Shown here piece by piece: positions 27,759-45,379 of a stretch of DNA of 64,000 nt. The translations under genes and the position numbers were made by a program. Position 1 is the stretch's first letter; each line of letters starts with the position of its first letter. The DNA comes from Clostridiales bacterium (GTDB lineage Bacteria; Bacillota; Clostridia; Saccharofermentanales; Saccharofermentanaceae). The stretch lies in the NCBI GenBank assembly GCA_017617525.1, contig JAFZWA010000006.1, positions 1-64,000 of the forward strand, given 5' to 3'. The notes under the pieces were generated by a model. That model saw only the letters and a program-made list of their open reading frames with translations. It had not been told where the DNA came from and made no database searches.

Positions 27759-27791
27759 AAAAAAATAATGGACCAATGATTGATCCATTAT
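27759..27791 (-). terminator. Terminator of the 189-residue membrane protein gene
   Basis: On the minus strand ATAATGGATCAA and TTGGTCCATTAT pair (one mismatch) and are followed by TTTTTGG. The stem overlaps the stop codon at 27788. Confidence 0.7.
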
Positions 27792-28357
27792 GTTGCAGGC
27801 TGTGTTGCTGATGATTCCGATGCACTTGTATTGGATGGAATCGGTGTGACGTTTTGAACGTCCGGAGCGATCGCGTTGTTTGTTGTTTCTGTCGCGAACG
27901 GATCACTCTGTGTTAATTCATCCAGTTCATTGACGCCGATCATCTGTTTGTACTCTGTGTAATCGACCTTCGGTTTGAACCAGCGGTATGTCATGACAAG
28001 TACCAGAAAGATAATGCAAGCGATCAGGATCTTTCTGATGATCAATAACGCTCGCTCTTTTCTGTACTTCCTATCTACATATTCTTTTGTTGTATATCCT
28101 ACAAGCACATATACCTTTGAAATGGACTTTCTCTTAGGCATACGTCTGTGTTCGGCGATCTTTGCTTTTACGCGGTTTCTGATCGCGTCCGGAAGGTTTT
28201 TGAAGAACTGAACGGTCGTACGGCCCAGGAACGCAAAGAATCCGCCGATAGTATCTAAACTATCGACAGAAACGTCCTCTTCTTCCATCAGGTCCTCTTC
28301 TTCAAAGATTTCCTCTTCCTCTGGAATTGTGTTTTCATTAAGCTTTTCTTCTTCCAT
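27788..28357 (-). CDS. Hypothetical acidic single-pass membrane protein
   Basis: I do not recognise this 189-residue protein. Residues 1-35 are extremely acidic (long Glu runs), residues 50-103 are basic (RNRVKAKIAEHRRMPKRK, KEYVDRKYRKER), 104-124 form one membrane helix, and the last 60 residues are Ser/Thr/Pro/Asn-rich and probably outside the cell. The charge pattern predicts the N terminus in the cytoplasm. There is no ribosome binding site before the ATG. Instead an extended -10 TGCTATAAT ends 7 bases before it, so the mRNA may be leaderless. It follows the small membrane protein gene next to lexA and might also be read from that SOS-linked promoter region. Confidence 0.7.
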   Translation of the reverse strand: MEEEKLNENTIPEEEEIFEEEDLMEEEDVSVDSLDTIGGFFAFLGRTTVQFFKNLPDAIRNRVKAKIAEHRRMPKRKSISKVYVLVGYTTKEYVDRKYRKERALLIIRKILIACIIFLVLVMTYRWFKPKVDYTEYKQMIGVNELDELTQSDPFATETTNNAIAPDVQNVTPIPSNTSASESSATQPAT

Positions 28358-28564: not shown

Positions 28565-28621
28565 CTTTTCACCTTTCTTCGTGATCGCCTGAAACAGCGT
28601 GATTTCAAGTCGAACGGAATG

Positions 28622-28635
28622 CGAACAATCGTTTG
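28622..28635. promoter_or_regulatory. LexA (SOS) box
   Basis: CGAACAATCGTTTG matches the Gram-positive SOS box CGAACRNRYGTTYC at 12 of 14 positions and overlaps the lexA -35. It lies between lexA and the divergent small membrane gene, so LexA bound here could control both. A further half site (TCGAAC, 28610-28615) is nearby. Confidence 0.8.
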
Positions 28636-28661
28636 ACAACGGATTGTGGTAATGATAAGAT
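28633..28661 (+). promoter_or_regulatory. lexA promoter
   Basis: Perfect TTGACA (28633-28638), 17 bases, TAAGAT (28656-28661). The -35 overlaps the SOS box, consistent with autorepression. Confidence 0.8.
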
Positions 28662-28691
28662 AACTATAAATATACTTACGGAGGCAGGAAT

Positions 28692-29333
28692 ATGAGCACT
28701 TACAAGTTTACTAAGAGCAATTTGAAAGAGACTCTCGAGATTATTTACGCTTTTATTGTTAATTTCGTAAAGACCGAAGGTTATCCGCCGTCCGTTCGTG
28801 AGATCTGCCAGGGCGTTGGTATTCGCTCCACTTCTACTGTTCATGCGCATCTTCACCGCCTCATGGAAGAAGGAAAGATCGAGTATATTCCCGGAAAACG
28901 TCGCGCGATCATGATCAAAGAGACAAATACAGATATGAACTCTTCCGCTGCGAAGAGAATTCCTCTCGTAGGTACCGTTACCGCGGGTGTTCCGATCCTT
29001 GCCGAAGAGAATATCGATCACTATATGCCCTTCCCTTCCGAGTATTTCAATACTTCCGAGTATTATCTCCTGAAGGTTCGTGGCGACAGCATGATCAATG
29101 CGCATATCTGTGACGGCGACTATGTGATCGTTCGTCGTAAGAATATGGCAAACATCAATCAGATCGTTGTTGCTTTGATCGGTAACGAAGCTACCGTTAA
29201 GCGTCTCGTTTATAAAAAAGGCCACGCGGCTCTTCATCCGGAAAATCCGGCATATAACGATATTCCTTTTGAAGATGATGACTGTAAGATCATCGGTATC
29301 GTTGACGGTGTTTTCAGAACAAAAGTAAACTAA
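28692..29333 (+). CDS. lexA: LexA repressor
   Basis: SOS repressor and self-cleaving serine protease, 213 residues. The N-terminal winged helix-turn-helix reads PPSVREICQGVGIRSTSTVHAHLHRL (about 34-59). The cleavage site is Ala-Gly in TVTAGVP (about 97-103). The catalytic serine is in VRGDSMINAH (about 133) and the lysine in NEATVKRLV (about 170). All key residues are present, so RecA-stimulated cleavage should work. The gene is preceded by an SOS box. Its stop overlaps the hfq stop on the other strand by two bases, and no terminator separates them. Confidence 0.96.
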   Translation: MSTYKFTKSNLKETLEIIYAFIVNFVKTEGYPPSVREICQGVGIRSTSTVHAHLHRLMEEGKIEYIPGKRRAIMIKETNTDMNSSAAKRIPLVGTVTAGVPILAEENIDHYMPFPSEYFNTSEYYLLKVRGDSMINAHICDGDYVIVRRKNMANINQIVVALIGNEATVKRLVYKKGHAALHPENPAYNDIPFEDDDCKIIGIVDGVFRTKVN

Positions 29334-32687: not shown

Positions 32688-35387
32688 CTATTCGTCTCCT
32701 TTTGCTTTCTCAATAAGTGAATAAAGTATATTCATCGCCTCCAGTGGCGTAATTCTGGAAATGTCCAAATTGACCAGTTCGGTTCTCAGAGAATGAGAAT
32801 CGGCCGGCTCTGTCCGGTTCGGGGCAAACAACGGGATCTGACCTGAGATCGGTCCTTCAAACGTCTCCCCTTCCCCATCGGTATAGTTGATCTGCATCTT
32901 TTTCTTATCCAGCTCGGAAAGAATCACATTCGCTCTTTCAACGACCTCGGTCGGAACGCCTGCAAGACGGGCTACTTCAATACCGTAACTGTCAGAGGTA
33001 CCGCCGGTTGAGATCTTATGGAGGAAGGATACTTCCTTGTTCTTCTCTTCTACTTCAACGTGCGCATTGTATACACCGGTCAAAGTCTTTTCGAGCTGAT
33101 TGAGTTCGTGATAGTGCGTCGCGAAGATCGTTCTCGCGAACATGATCGATCTGTTTGCGATGAACTCTATGATGGCCCACGCGATCGCTAAGCCGTCGTA
33201 TGTACTTGTTCCGCGTCCTACTTCATCCAGGAGCAGCAGGCTCTTATAGGTACCGTTTCGAAGGATTCCGGATACCTCGTTCATTTCGACCATGAATGTC
33301 GATTGACCAAGAGAGATATCATCCGAAGCGCCGATCCTCGTAAAGATACGGTCGACGATACCGATATGCGCAAATGATGCCGGTACGAAAGAACCGATCT
33401 GCGCGAGAAGCACGATCAGAGCGGTCTGACGCATGTATGTAGACTTACCGGCCATGTTCGGACCTGTAAGGATCATGATGCGGTGGTTCTCTTCATCCAT
33501 AGAGATTCCGTTAGGTACGAACTCTCCTTCTTTGAGCATCTTCTCAACGACCGGATGACGTCCGTCTTCGATGACAAGTGCTGTAGTATCGTCTACCTTC
33601 GGTCTGCAGTAGTTGTTTCTTTCCGCGAGTTCGCCAAGGGACATGATGACATCGAGAACAGCCAATGCTGACGCGACACGGTACAGACGATGCACCTGCG
33701 ACGCGATCTTTTCTCGCAGTTCACAGAAGAGATCATATTCGAGTGAAACTAGTTTCGCTGTCGATCCAACGATCGTATCCTCGATGCTCTTGAGTTCCTC
33801 GGTGATATAGCGCTCACCGGTCGTAAGCGTTTGTTTTCTGATATATCTTTCAGGAACCAGCGGAACGTTGCCTTTGGAAACTTCAATATAGTAACCGAAG
33901 ACCTTGTTATAGCTGATCCTCAGATTCTTGATACCGGTCTCTTCTTTCTCTTTTGCTTCCATCTCGAGGATGATGGACTTACCATCTTTGCTCGCGCGAC
34001 GGAGCCTGTCTGCCTCTTCGTTATATCCGTCTTTGAACATGCCGCCTTCTTTTACGGAGATCGGCGGATCCTCGCAAAGCGCTGCTTCCAGAAGTTCATA
34101 TATATCTGACAGGTCTTCAAGGTCGGAAACCGTATCTTTAAGAACACCAGCCTGGAAATGCGCGGCACATTCTCTGATATAAGGAAGCTTTGAAAGTGTG
34201 TTTCTTAGGTTCAGAAGGTCTCTGGCGTTAACTGATGAAAGTGCGATACGAGATGCCAGTCTTTCCATATCGTGCACACCGAGAAGGGCTTCACGAAGCT
34301 CCTGGCGGTGGATAAAGTCATTCTTCGCTTGTTCAACGGCGTCAAGTCTTGCTGTGATCGAAGACACGTCGATCAGAGGCTCTTCGATATATTCACGAAG
34401 TCTTCTTCCGCCCATGGATGTCTGCGTCATATCGATCGCCCAGAGAAGACTTCCCTTCTTTTGTTTCGAGCGGATCGTCGACGTGATCTCGAGATTCGTT
34501 CTCGTCGCGACATCAAGTTCCATCGTGTCAGAGACTTCATAGATCCTGGCGGTAGAAAAATGCGTGACCTGTGCCTGCTGTGTCTCATCGAGATAAGCCA
34601 GGATCGCGTCGATCGCGGAGGTCAGAAGGATGTTCTTGGTTTCTTCGGCAAAAGAACTCTTCCCCTTTTTCTTTCCCGTGCTTTCTTTCTTATAACTATC
34701 CGGAAGGACGCGATCGGAAAGTCCCGCTGAGAAATCGGCGTTCGGACGCAATGTCACAGATCCTACGAGATTGTCGCATACATAGTTAAATAGTTCGTCT
34801 TTGCTGAAATCTTCGTTGAAGATCAGCTCGGACGCTCTGTATTTCGAAAGCATGTTGACCAGGTGCTGCGCGGTATTTCCCGTGATCAGCTGTGTCGCTT
34901 CCATGGTTCCGGTCGTAATGTCCGCGGCGGCAAGGCCGTACTGCATGCCGACCTTATAGACACACACGAGGAAGTTGTTTTTCTTTTCATCCAGACCGTT
35001 TGTGTCAATGACAGTACCCGGCGTCAAAACACGAGTGATCGAACGCTTGACAAGTCCTTTTGCCAAGGCCGGATCTTCCATCTGTTCACAGATAGCGACC
35101 TTATAGCCCTGTGTGATCAGACGCTGCATATACGAAGACGCGGAGTGATGCGGAACACCGCACATCGGAGCGCGCTTTTCGAGCCCGCAGTCTCTGGATG
35201 TCAGAGTGAGTTCGAGGATACGTGAAACCAGGATGGCGTCGTCAAAGAACATCTCATAGAAGTCTCCGAGACGGAACATGAGGATCGCGTCACCGGCCAG
35301 TTTCTTCATCTCGAAATACTGGCGCATCATCGGAGAGAGCGTCGACACATCAACGGCTGCATATGTTAAAAGATCGTCGTTATTCAT
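32688..35387 (-). CDS. mutS: DNA mismatch repair protein MutS
   Basis: An 899-residue mismatch-recognition ATPase. The N-terminal domain has the Phe-x-Glu wedge in RLGDFYEMFFDDA. The C-terminal ABC domain has Walker A GPNMAGKSTYMRQ, signature STFMVEMNE and Walker B LLLDEVGRGTSTYDG, followed by the helix-turn-helix and dimer region. The C terminus keeps a beta-clamp-like segment (QIPLFAP). The start at 35387 was chosen because ATG overlaps the miaB stop (ATGAATAA) and GGAG lies 10 bases upstream; an in-frame ATG at 35408 is the alternative. Confidence 0.97.
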   Translation of the reverse strand: MNNDDLLTYAAVDVSTLSPMMRQYFEMKKLAGDAILMFRLGDFYEMFFDDAILVSRILELTLTSRDCGLEKRAPMCGVPHHSASSYMQRLITQGYKVAICEQMEDPALAKGLVKRSITRVLTPGTVIDTNGLDEKKNNFLVCVYKVGMQYGLAAADITTGTMEATQLITGNTAQHLVNMLSKYRASELIFNEDFSKDELFNYVCDNLVGSVTLRPNADFSAGLSDRVLPDSYKKESTGKKKGKSSFAEETKNILLTSAIDAILAYLDETQQAQVTHFSTARIYEVSDTMELDVATRTNLEITSTIRSKQKKGSLLWAIDMTQTSMGGRRLREYIEEPLIDVSSITARLDAVEQAKNDFIHRQELREALLGVHDMERLASRIALSSVNARDLLNLRNTLSKLPYIRECAAHFQAGVLKDTVSDLEDLSDIYELLEAALCEDPPISVKEGGMFKDGYNEEADRLRRASKDGKSIILEMEAKEKEETGIKNLRISYNKVFGYYIEVSKGNVPLVPERYIRKQTLTTGERYITEELKSIEDTIVGSTAKLVSLEYDLFCELREKIASQVHRLYRVASALAVLDVIMSLGELAERNNYCRPKVDDTTALVIEDGRHPVVEKMLKEGEFVPNGISMDEENHRIMILTGPNMAGKSTYMRQTALIVLLAQIGSFVPASFAHIGIVDRIFTRIGASDDISLGQSTFMVEMNEVSGILRNGTYKSLLLLDEVGRGTSTYDGLAIAWAIIEFIANRSIMFARTIFATHYHELNQLEKTLTGVYNAHVEVEEKNKEVSFLHKISTGGTSDSYGIEVARLAGVPTEVVERANVILSELDKKKMQINYTDGEGETFEGPISGQIPLFAPNRTEPADSHSLRTELVNLDISRITPLEAMNILYSLIEKAKGDE

Positions 35388-36873
35388 CGATAAAACTCTC
35401 CAATTCACCTTCTACTGAGTATGGCTTCGCGCGTGTGATGCGCACCATAGCAAGCATTCCTTCAAACTTATCCGCGTCAAAATCCTGTGCAGTACTGTCG
35501 ATCTCCTTGCCATCCAGTTCGATGCCGGCAGGTATCCGGAAATTTACAAGACGGTTGGAATTTGTTCTTCCCGTAAGGACATCCGGAGCGGTCGCGCTCT
35601 TTCCTTCAATCAGGATCTCTTCAGTCTTTCCGACAACGGACTCATTCGACGCGAAAGTCAGCGCGTTCTGAAGATCAAGAAGTCTTCCGAAACGCTCGGT
35701 AACAACATCCTGCGGGATCTGATCCGGATAGTCGGCCGCTTTTGTTCCCGGACGTCGGCTGTACTGGAATGTAAAAGCACTGTCGAACTTGCACTTTTCG
35801 ACGACATCCAAAGTCGCCTGGAAGTCCTCTTCTGTTTCTCCCGGGAAACCGACGATGATATCTGTCGTCAAAGTCGCGTCGGGAAGTTCTTTTCTAAAGA
35901 GCATCGCGGTCCTAAGATATTGTTCCTGATCGTAGTGACGGTTCATTCTTTTAAGAACGACACTGGATCCGGACTGCATCGGAAGATGCAGATGACGCTC
36001 TATATTCGGATATTTTTTCATTGTGTAGATGACTTCTTCCGAGATATCCTTCGGATGAGATGTCATAAAGCGGATACGTGAAAAGCCCGGGATCTTCGCA
36101 GCTTCTTCCAGAAGCTTGGCAAACGAGATCTCGTCTTCTTTATCGTTTCCATAGGAGTTCACGTTCTGACCTAAAAGCATGACTTCCTTATAACCTTGCG
36201 AAGCAAGATCACGAAGCTGGGAAAGGATCTGTTCGGAGGAACGGGATCTTTCACGTCCGCGAGTATATGGAACTACGCAATATGTGCAGAAGTTATTGCA
36301 TCCGTACATGATCGGAACGAGCGCGCGGAACTTTCTTTTGTGAAGTACAGGAACATCCACATCGTCAACGAGATAATCCTCGTCAGATACTGCGAATACA
36401 CGCTTTCTCTGGTTCAGCTTTTTATCCAGGATCGCCGGAAGCATATGGATATCGGCAGGACCGAAGCAAGCGTCTACATATGGAAAACTCTTCTTGATGC
36501 GGTCGATATTCTCCTGCTGCTTCATCATACATCCGCAGACAGCGATAAACATGTCGCGGTTCTGCTTCTTTTGAGCCTTATATGCGCCGAGATTGCCGAA
36601 AAGACGGATGTCTGCGTTTTCTCGGATCGTACATGTGTTAAAGATAAGAAAGTCCGGGGACTGATCTTCCGAAGCCTCAACAAGACCTATCTCCTGAAGG
36701 ATGCCTTCGATCTTTTCGCTGTCGGATTCGTTGAGCTGGCATCCATAGGTCTTCACACGGTAAGTTAACGGTTGACCGCGGTCGATGCCCGCCTCGGTAA
36801 TGCGCTTTTTCAGCGACGGAATAAGAGAGTTATAGCGCGATAACTCATCTTGCGATACAATAACAGTTGACAC
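35380..36873 (-). CDS. miaB: tRNA-2-methylthio-N6-dimethylallyladenosine synthase MiaB
   Basis: A radical-SAM methylthiotransferase acting on i6A37 of tRNA. It has 497 residues. The auxiliary-cluster cysteines are in KTYGCQLNESDS, FNTCTIRENA and AVCGCMMKQ, and the radical-SAM motif is CNNFCTYC (CxxxCxxC). A TRAM domain (about 395-470) closes the protein. The start codon is GTG, with GAGG 9 bases upstream. It heads the operon that also carries the mismatch repair genes and miaA, so both enzymes of the ms2i6A37 pathway are encoded together. Confidence 0.96.
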   Translation of the reverse strand: MSTVIVSQDELSRYNSLIPSLKKRITEAGIDRGQPLTYRVKTYGCQLNESDSEKIEGILQEIGLVEASEDQSPDFLIFNTCTIRENADIRLFGNLGAYKAQKKQNRDMFIAVCGCMMKQQENIDRIKKSFPYVDACFGPADIHMLPAILDKKLNQRKRVFAVSDEDYLVDDVDVPVLHKRKFRALVPIMYGCNNFCTYCVVPYTRGRERSRSSEQILSQLRDLASQGYKEVMLLGQNVNSYGNDKEDEISFAKLLEEAAKIPGFSRIRFMTSHPKDISEEVIYTMKKYPNIERHLHLPMQSGSSVVLKRMNRHYDQEQYLRTAMLFRKELPDATLTTDIIVGFPGETEEDFQATLDVVEKCKFDSAFTFQYSRRPGTKAADYPDQIPQDVVTERFGRLLDLQNALTFASNESVVGKTEEILIEGKSATAPDVLTGRTNSNRLVNFRIPAGIELDGKEIDSTAQDFDADKFEGMLAMVRITRAKPYSVEGELESFIDE

Positions 36874-36954: not shown

Positions 36955-36996
36955 CGAGATCGAGTAACATTTTTAATGATTCGGGGATATGGTTTT

Positions 36997-38421
36997 ATGC
37001 GCAAAAAGCACTTGTTATGGAGAATGTGTTCGTTCCTTATTGCGTTTACCATTCTCTTTTCCGCTTTTTCCTCGTCTCTCCTTGCTGACGGGGAGGAACA
37101 AAAAGAGAGTAACAATCAGTCCTCTTCCCTTCAAAACCCCGTAGAAGGCCTTCTTGACCCGAATCCGTCAGGTCTTCCGATTCCCGGAGCGGAATCCTAT
37201 CTTATCTATGACGCACTTTCCGATACGATGCTGATCGGTTATCAGTATGATATGAAACGAGCTCCGGCTGCGATCTCTCAGATCATGACCGTTCTTCTTG
37301 CTCTTGAAAACCTTGAGTTTTCCGATACGATCACGATCACGAAAGAGATGTATGAGACCATTCCGGAGGATTATGTCAGGATCGGCTTTTCCGAAGGCGA
37401 AGTCGTTACTGTTGAACAGTGTGTTTACGCGAGCCTTTTAAAATCCGCAAATGACGCATGTATCGCACTTGCCGTAAAGATCAGCGGCAGCGAAGATGCG
37501 TTTGTCGACAAAATGAATCAGAGAGCGGTCGAGCTTGGTTGCACAAATACGCATTTTACGAATTCCTACGGTCTTTCTGACGGGGAAAATAAAACGACGT
37601 GTCAGGATATGTCTCTGATCTTAAAGGAAGCACTTCGCCATCCGGATTTCTCCTCTATCAGTACCTGCACATCTTATACGATCGACCCGACGAATACCTT
37701 TAATGACAGACGTGTCCTGAATAACGCAAACCGCTTTATTTCCACGCCTTCAACTGCGTATGAGTATTATATCGGTGGCAAGACCGGTTATTCAGCCGAG
37801 TCCGGTTATACGATCATCGCTGGTGCCGAAAAGGACGGAAGGCGATTGATCGGTGTCTTTTTAGGAGCAAATGACGCGGAAAACAGATATCTGGCTTTAA
37901 GTGAGCTTTTCGAGTACTGTTTTACGAACTATACAACAACAATGATCGAAGAAACAGAATTGAGCGGTTCTGTAAAAAACGCCACATCTCAGATCGAAAA
38001 CGCGATTATCGGAACAAATCTTAAGATCAGCAATTCTTCCCTTCGACTACTCGAGTATTACACGATCCACACTTCAGTAGCGAATGGTGGTTACGGAAAC
38101 GAGATCGATTTTGACGGTGTCGTTATCGATCCGCAGGCGAAGACTCAGGAGCTGAATCTTCCAATCTACCGTACTTTCAGCAATAACGCATCTTATAAGA
38201 TCGGCTATCTTAATGTAACGATCATCGATGAGTCGAGGATCAACGAGGAAGACGAAACTGTCGCTTCTAAATCAGACAAGAAAGATACGAAAGAGATCAT
38301 CGTAACGATCCTTATCGTCGCAGGGCTGACACTCTTAGCAGGAGCAGCGATCTTCCTGTTCGTAAAGATGGTCAAAAAGAGAAGGTTCAATAAGACCCAC
38401 AGAAATCCGAGGATCCTCTGA
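36997..38421 (+). CDS. DacF-like D,D-carboxypeptidase homologue lacking catalytic Ser and Lys
   Basis: A 474-residue protein of the S11 penicillin-binding family with an N-terminal signal/anchor helix (about 9-28), a peptidase domain (about 58-300), a C-terminal domain, a membrane helix near 440-462 and a basic tail. The segment that should read APASxTKxMT reads APAAISQIMT: the nucleophilic Ser is Ala (codon GCG, 37270) and the general-base Lys is Gln (CAG, 37279). The other motifs are intact, SAN at residue 150 and KTG at 262. It cannot be a normal carboxypeptidase and may be a substrate-binding or regulatory pseudoenzyme. The start was set at 36997; 36976 is also in frame. The stop abuts tldE. 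Confidence 0.85.
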   Translation: MRKKHLLWRMCSFLIAFTILFSAFSSSLLADGEEQKESNNQSSSLQNPVEGLLDPNPSGLPIPGAESYLIYDALSDTMLIGYQYDMKRAPAAISQIMTVLLALENLEFSDTITITKEMYETIPEDYVRIGFSEGEVVTVEQCVYASLLKSANDACIALAVKISGSEDAFVDKMNQRAVELGCTNTHFTNSYGLSDGENKTTCQDMSLILKEALRHPDFSSISTCTSYTIDPTNTFNDRRVLNNANRFISTPSTAYEYYIGGKTGYSAESGYTIIAGAEKDGRRLIGVFLGANDAENRYLALSELFEYCFTNYTTTMIEETELSGSVKNATSQIENAIIGTNLKISNSSLRLLEYYTIHTSVANGGYGNEIDFDGVVIDPQAKTQELNLPIYRTFSNNASYKIGYLNVTIIDESRINEEDETVASKSDKKDTKEIIVTILIVAGLTLLAGAAIFLFVKMVKKRRFNKTHRNPRIL

Positions 38422-43601: not shown

Positions 43602-44459
43602 TCAGGACCTTCCCGGAACGTATCCGCGAGAGATGGCCATCTCGGCGCGTTGCTTCGGCTTACCGCCGAGAGCGATCTGCTCATCGATGAAATCAGGATG
43701 AGCTGTAAGAAAAGCCTTCATGTAATCGATCGGATTCTCCATGAAGTGAGCGACCATGTCGCGCTGCGCTTTTGTAAGGATCCCCTTCTCAACGCCCTCA
43801 TCAAAGAGAGAAAGCTCGATCTTAGCGAAGGTGTACATGTTTACGCCTTCCGCCTTAAGGTTAGCTTCACCGCCCTGAAGACGGTCGATAACGGCGATCG
43901 TATCTGTGATAGTAGCGCCTGTACCACGGATGGACGGAATCCAAGCGTTTGTGTAAGAAGATGCTTCTGTGATCAGGTCAGCGATATGAAGGGATACTTT
44001 ACCGGAAAGGTCTCCCTTACCTACCTTAACAGCCTTCTCTTCTACATTCTCGGAATAGTATGTCTCACCATCCTTGAAGATGGAAAGGTGCGGCTTTCCA
44101 AGAAGATAAGCCGGCATCAGGGAGAAGAAATAATCGCGACGCTCACCACCGGAGATCACGTCGAAATCCAGTTCTTTTGCCTTAGCGACGATAAGATCGA
44201 TAACGGCCTTATAGGATTCGGAAGTCTCATACTGCTTCTTTACAAAAGAGAGGATCGTTGTCAGAAAATCTGTACGATCGCCGGCAGCTGCCTCTTCGAT
44301 CAGAGCCAGAAGCTCATTTGCTTTCTGCTCGGACTCGAGAAGAAAGTGTGTATTTACATAGAAAGGGCCGAGAGTTCCGGAAGCATACCAGAACGGCTTC
44401 TCCGGATCGCTGACACGTACGGCATTCGTCTCAAAAAGATAATCGGCAATTGATTTCAT
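43602..44459 (-). CDS. pyrE: Orotate phosphoribosyltransferase, long divergent form
   Basis: Converts orotate and PRPP to OMP. The 285-residue protein is longer than the classic PyrE of about 210 residues. The conserved phosphoribosyltransferase features are seen in GPFYVNTHFLLES, VISGGERRDYFFSLMPAYLLGKPHLSIFKDG and LHIADLITEASSY, where the usual VVxDDVxTTG PRPP loop is altered to an ADLIT form. The last 90 residues (KIELSLFDEGVEKGILT...) are an extra domain. Position between pyrD and the end of the pyr operon supports the call. ATG 44459 has GGAGG 6 bases before it and overlaps the end of pyrD. Confidence 0.85.
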   Translation of the reverse strand: MKSIADYLFETNAVRVSDPEKPFWYASGTLGPFYVNTHFLLESEQKANELLALIEEAAAGDRTDFLTTILSFVKKQYETSESYKAVIDLIVAKAKELDFDVISGGERRDYFFSLMPAYLLGKPHLSIFKDGETYYSENVEEKAVKVGKGDLSGKVSLHIADLITEASSYTNAWIPSIRGTGATITDTIAVIDRLQGGEANLKAEGVNMYTFAKIELSLFDEGVEKGILTKAQRDMVAHFMENPIDYMKAFLTAHPDFIDEQIALGGKPKQRAEMAISRGYVPGRS

Positions 44460-44461
44460 GT

Positions 44462-45379
44462 TTACCTCCACAATTCAAGCGTACCGGTTAAGGACGCCAG
44501 TTCTTCGATATTGTTTTCTTTGCAGTATTTCTCAAGATCTTCCACGATCTCGACAGGACGTGTCGGATGAACGAGCGTGATCGTACCAAGCTCGACTGCG
44601 GAAGCGCCTGCGATCATGAACTCGAGAACATCTTCGTAAGTGGAAACACCACCGCATCCGACCACAGGGATCTTTACCGCGTCGTAGATGTCGTGGACCA
44701 TACGAAGAGCGACAGGTTTTACGCACGGACCGGAAAGTCCGCCGGTATTGTTATGAAGAAGCGGTCTTCTCGTTCTGATATCGATCGCCATACCGAGCAT
44801 GGTATTGATCGCGACGATCGCGTCTGCACCGCCTGCTTCTGCTCCCTTAGCAGTCTCCGCAATAGATGTGACGTTCGGTGTCAGCTTGATCCAAAGCGGA
44901 AGATCAGTTCTTTTACGAAGGTCGGAAACGAGAGCTTCGATGGCTTTCGGAGAAGATCCGATAACCATGCATCCTTCTTTAACGTTCGGGCAGGAGAAAT
45001 TCAGTTCCAGAGCGTTGATCTTTTCTTTGAAAGGATCGAGTTTTTCGACCATAGCGATATAGTCTTCATTCGAATGACCGGCGACATTGACGACAACGCC
45101 TGCTCCGCTATCTACCATAAAATCGAGCTCAGTTGCCAGGAAAGCGTCTACACCGGGGTTCTGAAGACCTACACAGTTCAGCATACCGGAAGGTGTTTCC
45201 GCTACACGAACACCCTGGTTTCCATCTCTCGGGAGAAGTGTCAGACCTTTGGATGACAGAGCACCAAGTTTACTGAGATCCATATATTCAGAAAGTTCTC
45301 TTCCGAAACCGCATGTTCCGGACGCAAGAATGATCGGATTTTTCAGGTCGACCTGACCAACTTTTACTGAAATACTCAC
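44462..45379 (-). CDS. pyrD: Dihydroorotate dehydrogenase B, catalytic subunit
   Basis: FMN-containing class 1B enzyme oxidising dihydroorotate to orotate, 305 residues. SGTCGFGRELSEYMD, the active-site cysteine loop LNFSCPNVKEG, WIKLTPNVT and GCGGVSTYEDVLEF are typical. GTG is the start codon and overlaps the pyrK stop (GTGA), so the catalytic and electron-transfer subunits are translationally coupled. Confidence 0.96.
   Translation of the reverse strand: MSISVKVGQVDLKNPIILASGTCGFGRELSEYMDLSKLGALSSKGLTLLPRDGNQGVRVAETPSGMLNCVGLQNPGVDAFLATELDFMVDSGAGVVVNVAGHSNEDYIAMVEKLDPFKEKINALELNFSCPNVKEGCMVIGSSPKAIEALVSDLRKRTDLPLWIKLTPNVTSIAETAKGAEAGGADAIVAINTMLGMAIDIRTRRPLLHNNTGGLSGPCVKPVALRMVHDIYDAVKIPVVGCGGVSTYEDVLEFMIAGASAVELGTITLVHPTRPVEIVEDLEKYCKENNIEELASLTGTLELWR

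Follow-up and report, generated by a model that had tools for sequence, protein, structure and literature searches.

A membrane-anchored D,D-carboxypeptidase homologue lacking the catalytic lysine, and mostly also the serine, is conserved across a genus of Saccharofermentanaceae

Members of enzyme families that have lost their activity are common, and among the low-molecular-weight D,D-carboxypeptidases of MEROPS family S11 (PBP5, PBP6, DacB and DacF) inactive forms made in the laboratory are already known. The mutants PBP5 S44G, PBP6a S66A/G and PBP6b S63A/G, in which Ser is replaced by Gly or Ala, have harmful or null effects (PMC4916385, PMC5596342). PBP5 S44G reportedly binds no substrate and is evenly spread (PMC2909392, PMC5596342), while the D,D-carboxypeptidases of E. 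coli assemble into different dimers when inactive, and PBP5 in such a form perturbs shape (PMC5596342, PMC4916385). PBP6a of E. coli may in turn shield pentapeptides (PMC4916385). Outside the family, the closest parallel is found among the degenerate LytM factors, where the catalytically inactive protein DipM docks and activates autolysins via a conserved groove (PMC10336132). In the open-licence literature, a non-catalytic role of low-molecular-weight penicillin-binding proteins has so far been argued from made E. coli mutants, and our search of that literature returned made mutants only, with no report of a naturally inactive S11 clade conserved throughout a genus.

The homologue described here is encoded in the window, that is, the whole stretch of 64,000 nucleotides that was analysed, which belongs to a 2.47-Mb genome assembled into 64 contigs. 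Its coding sequence (36997..38421, +) was defined from the open reading frame, the PF00768 match, homology to the structures 3mfd and 4k91, and the starts of its orthologues. The frame is intact and would give 481 aa from the ATG at 36976 or 474 aa from the ATG at 36997; the latter is probably the start, since close orthologues begin there with MRKK. Residue numbers of the window protein are nevertheless counted from 36976 throughout, and a count from 36997 is 7 lower. A miaB-like gene (35380-36873, -) and a mutS-like gene (32688-35408, -), both identified by synteny and named from sequence motifs only, run divergently from the S11 homologue (together 32688..36873, -) and fix the identity of the locus family-wide, with a Pfam-confirmed mutL lying beyond them. 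With one neighbour divergent and the other convergent, the S11 homologue is a solitary gene that has no operon partner at this locus.

Membership in S11 is supported by a PF00768 score of 150.8 bits, well above the curated cut-off of 27.6, and the closest solved structures are those of B. subtilis DacB (3mfd, E 1.7e-35) and P. aeruginosa PBP5 (4k91). A signal-like hydrophobic N-terminal helix (residues 8-36; 36997..37083, +), seen in hydropathy and as helix 4-35 in the predicted model, is followed by the S11 domain with its D,D-peptidase fold (37189..37872, +) and by a beta-rich, PBP5/PBP6-like C-terminal domain (residues ~346-420; 38011..38235, +), which rests on the model and fold matches and has no Pfam match of its own. 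The protein closes with a strong transmembrane segment, predicted from model and hydropathy (residues ~441-463; 38296..38364, +), and with the basic, presumably cytosolic tail KMVKKRRFNKTHRNPRIL (38365..38418, +), which ends in Leu and was delimited by orthologue comparison. The predicted model (13 sequences; mean pLDDT 76, ~90 across most of the catalytic domain) matches S11 enzymes across both the peptidase domain and the C-terminal beta domain, with VIA Z 34 to the Streptomyces K15 peptidase, PBP5, PBP6 and DacB, and TMt up to 0.88; a predicted match of this kind is what one would expect and carries no information on function. The window protein is the same as the S11 D,D-carboxypeptidases in family, fold, SxN, KTG, C-terminal beta domain and C-terminal membrane anchoring. 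It differs from them in having AxxQ instead of SxxK and, whereas the anchor of E. coli PBP5 is an amphipathic helix, in having a true transmembrane helix with a conserved tail.

At the active site, the sequence reads PAAISQ where SxxK is expected, and both structure alignments (3mfd and 4k91) put the catalytic Ser and Lys on Ala99 (GCG, 37270..37272, +) and Gln102 (CAG, 37279..37281, +), which are residues 92 and 95 when counted from 36997. The SxN motif is present as SAN (residues 157-159; 37444..37452, +; 22/22 in the genus), KTG is likewise present (residues 269-271; 37780..37788, +; 21/22 in the genus, with one KTA), and Arg304 (37885..37887, +), invariant in 103/103 sequences, aligns with the substrate-carboxylate Arg of PBP5, Arg248 in E. 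coli. An initial annotation, made from the letters of the DNA, had described a DacF-like protein with SxxK replaced through Ala92 and Gln95, with SAN, KTG, the signal helix and the C-terminal anchor preserved and the reading frame intact, and the alignments, the hydrophobic segments and the open frame from 36976 to 38421 bear out each of these features. Its proposal that acylation is lost also stands as a reading of the sequence: acylation chemistry would be gone because nucleophile and base are both missing, and without Ser, covalent penicillin binding is expected to be absent, as it is in PBP5 S44G (PMC2909392). Annotation by domain only would mislabel such proteins as working carboxypeptidases that beta-lactams target.

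SxxK occurs at just two other places in the protein, as SLLK at 153, shared by 8/21 orthologues, and as SDKK at 433; neither is conserved and both lie off the nucleophile position, so the protein has no displaced catalytic motif. A conserved cleft on an intact predicted fold would also suit changed catalysis, by another nucleophile such as Ser101 or in another reaction. We consider this very unlikely, as Ser101 is Thr in other orthologues of the genus, no SxxK is conserved elsewhere, and the Ser position itself drifts among Ala, Gly and Ser.

To place these substitutions, orthologues were collected from the window's genus, its family (Saccharofermentanaceae) and its order. Among the 23 genomes of the genus, 22 carry one orthologue, and the sole genome without one is 79% complete; public records with orthologues from the genus are ruminant gut assemblies and 'Candidatus Scatonaster coprocaballi' of the same family. 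Lys is replaced by Gln in 22/22, and the Ser position holds Ala in 17, Gly in 2 and Ser in 3, such that the nucleophile is lost in 19/22. The recurrence of the same Lys-to-Gln change in 22 orthologues from separate genomes excludes sequencing error or chance. Moreover, the tree together with the fixed Gln suggests that the base was already lost at the root of the genus, with the nucleophile following in most species.

Selection on the protein was gauged with IQ-TREE codon models, whose omega estimates are rough (dS near or above 1) and all far below 1: the window protein, taken together with its three nearest relatives, gave 0.057 in the catalytic domain and 0.091 over residues 37-481, and catalytic-domain values were 0.041 in a second inactive clade, described below, and 0.025-0.054 in active clades. 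Purifying selection on the inactive homologue is strong, and omega in the inactive clades gives no sign of the relaxed constraint seen in a decaying gene. With its catalytic residues lost and purifying selection acting across species (22/22; omega 0.057-0.091), the protein is a probable pseudoenzyme. Missing catalytic residues are also what a decaying pseudogene or an assembly error would leave, a prospect that we regard as negligible in view of a frame open in 22 genomes, omega of ~0.06-0.09 and a locus kept family-wide; the 22 orthologues rule out both assembly error and recent decay.

In the sister genera the same gene occupies the same place, divergent from miaB-mutS-mutL, and mostly reads PAS.TK. 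Because this synteny is conserved across the family, the inactive and active proteins are orthologous and the loss occurred in situ, which rules out the possibility that an inactive paralogue was being compared with active ones. A second inactive clade comprises 18 genomes of a large sister genus, in which Ser is replaced by Ala, Gly or Thr, with Lys changed to Ile in 4, KTG to LTG or ITG in 12 and SxN to SxS in 8. One further orthologue is inactive on its own (L029, from genome G031), with Lys changed to Met alongside TxN. The tree accordingly holds two separate clades of loss and one single case, parsimony counts three transitions in active-site state (intact or inactive), and a single clade uniting both inactive groups is rejected by the AU test (p-AU 6.9e-5), so that the inactive orthologues do not trace back to one shared loss. 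The loss of Ser in the 18-genome clade is independent of that in the window's genus. Several smaller observations attach to these genomes: G031 holds two further S11 copies, L033 (G024) shows SxN changed to SxC as its single departure, and one sister-genus genome carries a second copy (L034, G089:C189) identical to the protein of G008 from the window's genus, most likely a contamination of the assembly.

Active relatives accompany the inactive protein. The window's genome encodes one other S11 protein, adjoining a gyrA-like gene and reading PASMTK, SGN and KTG, and this paralogue is intact in 21/21 genus genomes with a readable motif; a VanY-family enzyme is also present in the window's genome. 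The chemistry is covered by the gyrA-linked paralogue and, in the window's genome, by VanY. Three PF00905 penicillin-binding proteins are encoded in the window's genome as well. An extra N-anchored S11 paralogue of PASVTK type occurs in 14/18 second-clade genomes, the four without it being 74-84% complete. We rejected compensation by this extra paralogue as an explanation of the losses, for five genomes with intact orthologues carry one as well (G081, G087, G086, G092 and G105) and none was found in the window's genus; given the inexact match and the few events, a link between extra paralogue and loss is at most suggestive. The extra paralogue (L092-L111 and L148; G094, G093, G080, G095, G109 and others) has SGA replacing SxN, is anchored near its N terminus and appears mainly where the miaB-linked orthologue is inactive. 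A plasmid search returned distant S11 enzymes only.

The two inactive clades part company in the cleft. Along the genus tree (6.86 substitutions/site), Ser157, Asn159, Lys269, Thr270 and Arg304 underwent no change and Gly271 one, whereas the same six residues changed 5 times over 3.77 substitutions/site in the second inactive clade. As that clade loses both Lys269 and Asn159 and retains the protein all the same, neither residue is required for its retention. That the two are nevertheless fixed in the window's genus suggests a cleft in use there. The initial annotation had held that the rest of the active site was retained, and in the window's genus it is. The checks that it had named also come out in its favour on several points: the substitutions recur in the genus orthologues, the omega of the catalytic domain is that of an intact protein under selection, a motif-intact S11 paralogue exists elsewhere in the genome, no functional SxxK has moved to another position, and the active orthologues of the sister genera do not signal recent decay, since the loss is genus-wide with low omega. 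Its suggestion of selection for ligand binding without acylation is one possible reading. The cleft is frozen in the genus, but the second clade loses the KTG Lys and the SxN Asn and keeps the protein, so that stem-peptide binding is not the sole retained function.

The same residues bear on a more specific proposal, that the protein is a non-covalent pentapeptide receptor whose cleft binds uncleaved D-Ala-D-Ala stems and either senses precursors via the tail or shields pentapeptides, the latter as proposed for PBP6a. The freezing of SxN, KTG and the carboxylate Arg in the genus would fit such a receptor, as would the loss of the KTG Lys and SxN Asn in the parallel clade, which implies that folding by itself does not require them. 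Yet that loss also removes a ligand-binding Lys from a protein that is kept, and PBP5 S44G is reportedly unable to bind substrate (PMC2909392, PMC5596342), which leaves the receptor rather unlikely in our judgement. A bolder version, in which membrane pseudo-carboxypeptidase receptors evolved repeatedly, their outer domain reading uncleaved stem peptides and relaying the signal via the helix and the Leu-ending tail, strikes us as improbable. The peptidoglycan-sensing role put forward in the initial annotation is a possibility.

A single C-terminal membrane helix, a basic tail and a final Leu are common to both inactive clades and the active orthologues, the final Leu being found in 100/103 orthologues (21/21, 17/18, 62/64). 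In the genus, the tail takes the form KKRKFNKNHRNPxIL, with NPxIL or NPxVL as the terminal motif, and matches the catalytic domain in conservation (entropy 0.73 vs 0.71), whereas the adjoining membrane helix varies freely (juxtamembrane region 2.26, membrane segment 1.81). The tail also occurs in active orthologues and so is no hallmark of inactivity; its basic residues could serve membrane topology only. A similar basic tail is found on the gyrA-linked S11 paralogue. That tail and final Leu are conserved whatever the catalytic state might suggest a protein retained only as a membrane-anchored tail, with selection on helix and tail and the outer domain a passive fold; this is highly improbable, as the omega of the outer domain (0.057) is lower than that of the tail (0.126, from a very short segment) and the cleft is frozen in the genus.

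Combining these results, we favour, at a rough probability of 0.6, a membrane-anchored pseudo-D,D-carboxypeptidase whose retained role in wall growth is non-catalytic, namely docking or localisation, with a cleft that would still be used in the genus. A scaffold or docking role fits both inactive clades, and it is for this reason that we prefer it. An active enzyme of PBP5/DacF type would have given rise in situ to a descendant that lost its general base by the Lys-to-Gln change before the genus radiated, after which Ser-to-Ala or Ser-to-Gly changes would have removed the nucleophile in most species. The pseudo-carboxypeptidase may reside in the membrane where the wall is synthesised, and there its outer domain could dock partners, either other wall enzymes or the active paralogue in mixed dimers, and its cytosolic tail could link it to a partner inside the cell. 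The genus cleft (SxN, KTG, Arg and Gln) is probably used non-covalently, as a perhaps weak stem-peptide site or as a protein-docking groove.

DipM offers a precedent for such a mechanism, as it too has the fold of a peptidoglycan peptidase, lacks the catalytic residues and keeps a conserved groove (PMC10336132); the two folds are unrelated, and the function is experimental in DipM and inferred here. Compared with the laboratory S11 mutants, which share its Ser-to-Gly/Ala change, that of the window protein is natural, fixed in the genus, joined to Lys-to-Gln and under purifying selection. The locus thereby offers a natural experiment in which the chemistry of a D,D-carboxypeptidase is set apart from the enzyme's other roles, and, as the protein has outlived its chemistry in two independent lineages, the non-catalytic role of low-molecular-weight penicillin-binding proteins becomes testable on natural proteins.

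Elsewhere in the window, the 189-aa ORF at 27788-28357 (-) is without significant Pfam or NCBIfam match, and a LexA-type repressor gene lies at 28692-29333 (+), with an antisense ORF (28605-29237) that is probably not a gene. The conserved gene at 43602-44471 (-) adjoins pyrD/pyrK-like genes; it has no significant Pfam match, gives weak hits to orotate/adenine phosphoribosyltransferase models only, and probably encodes a divergent PyrE.
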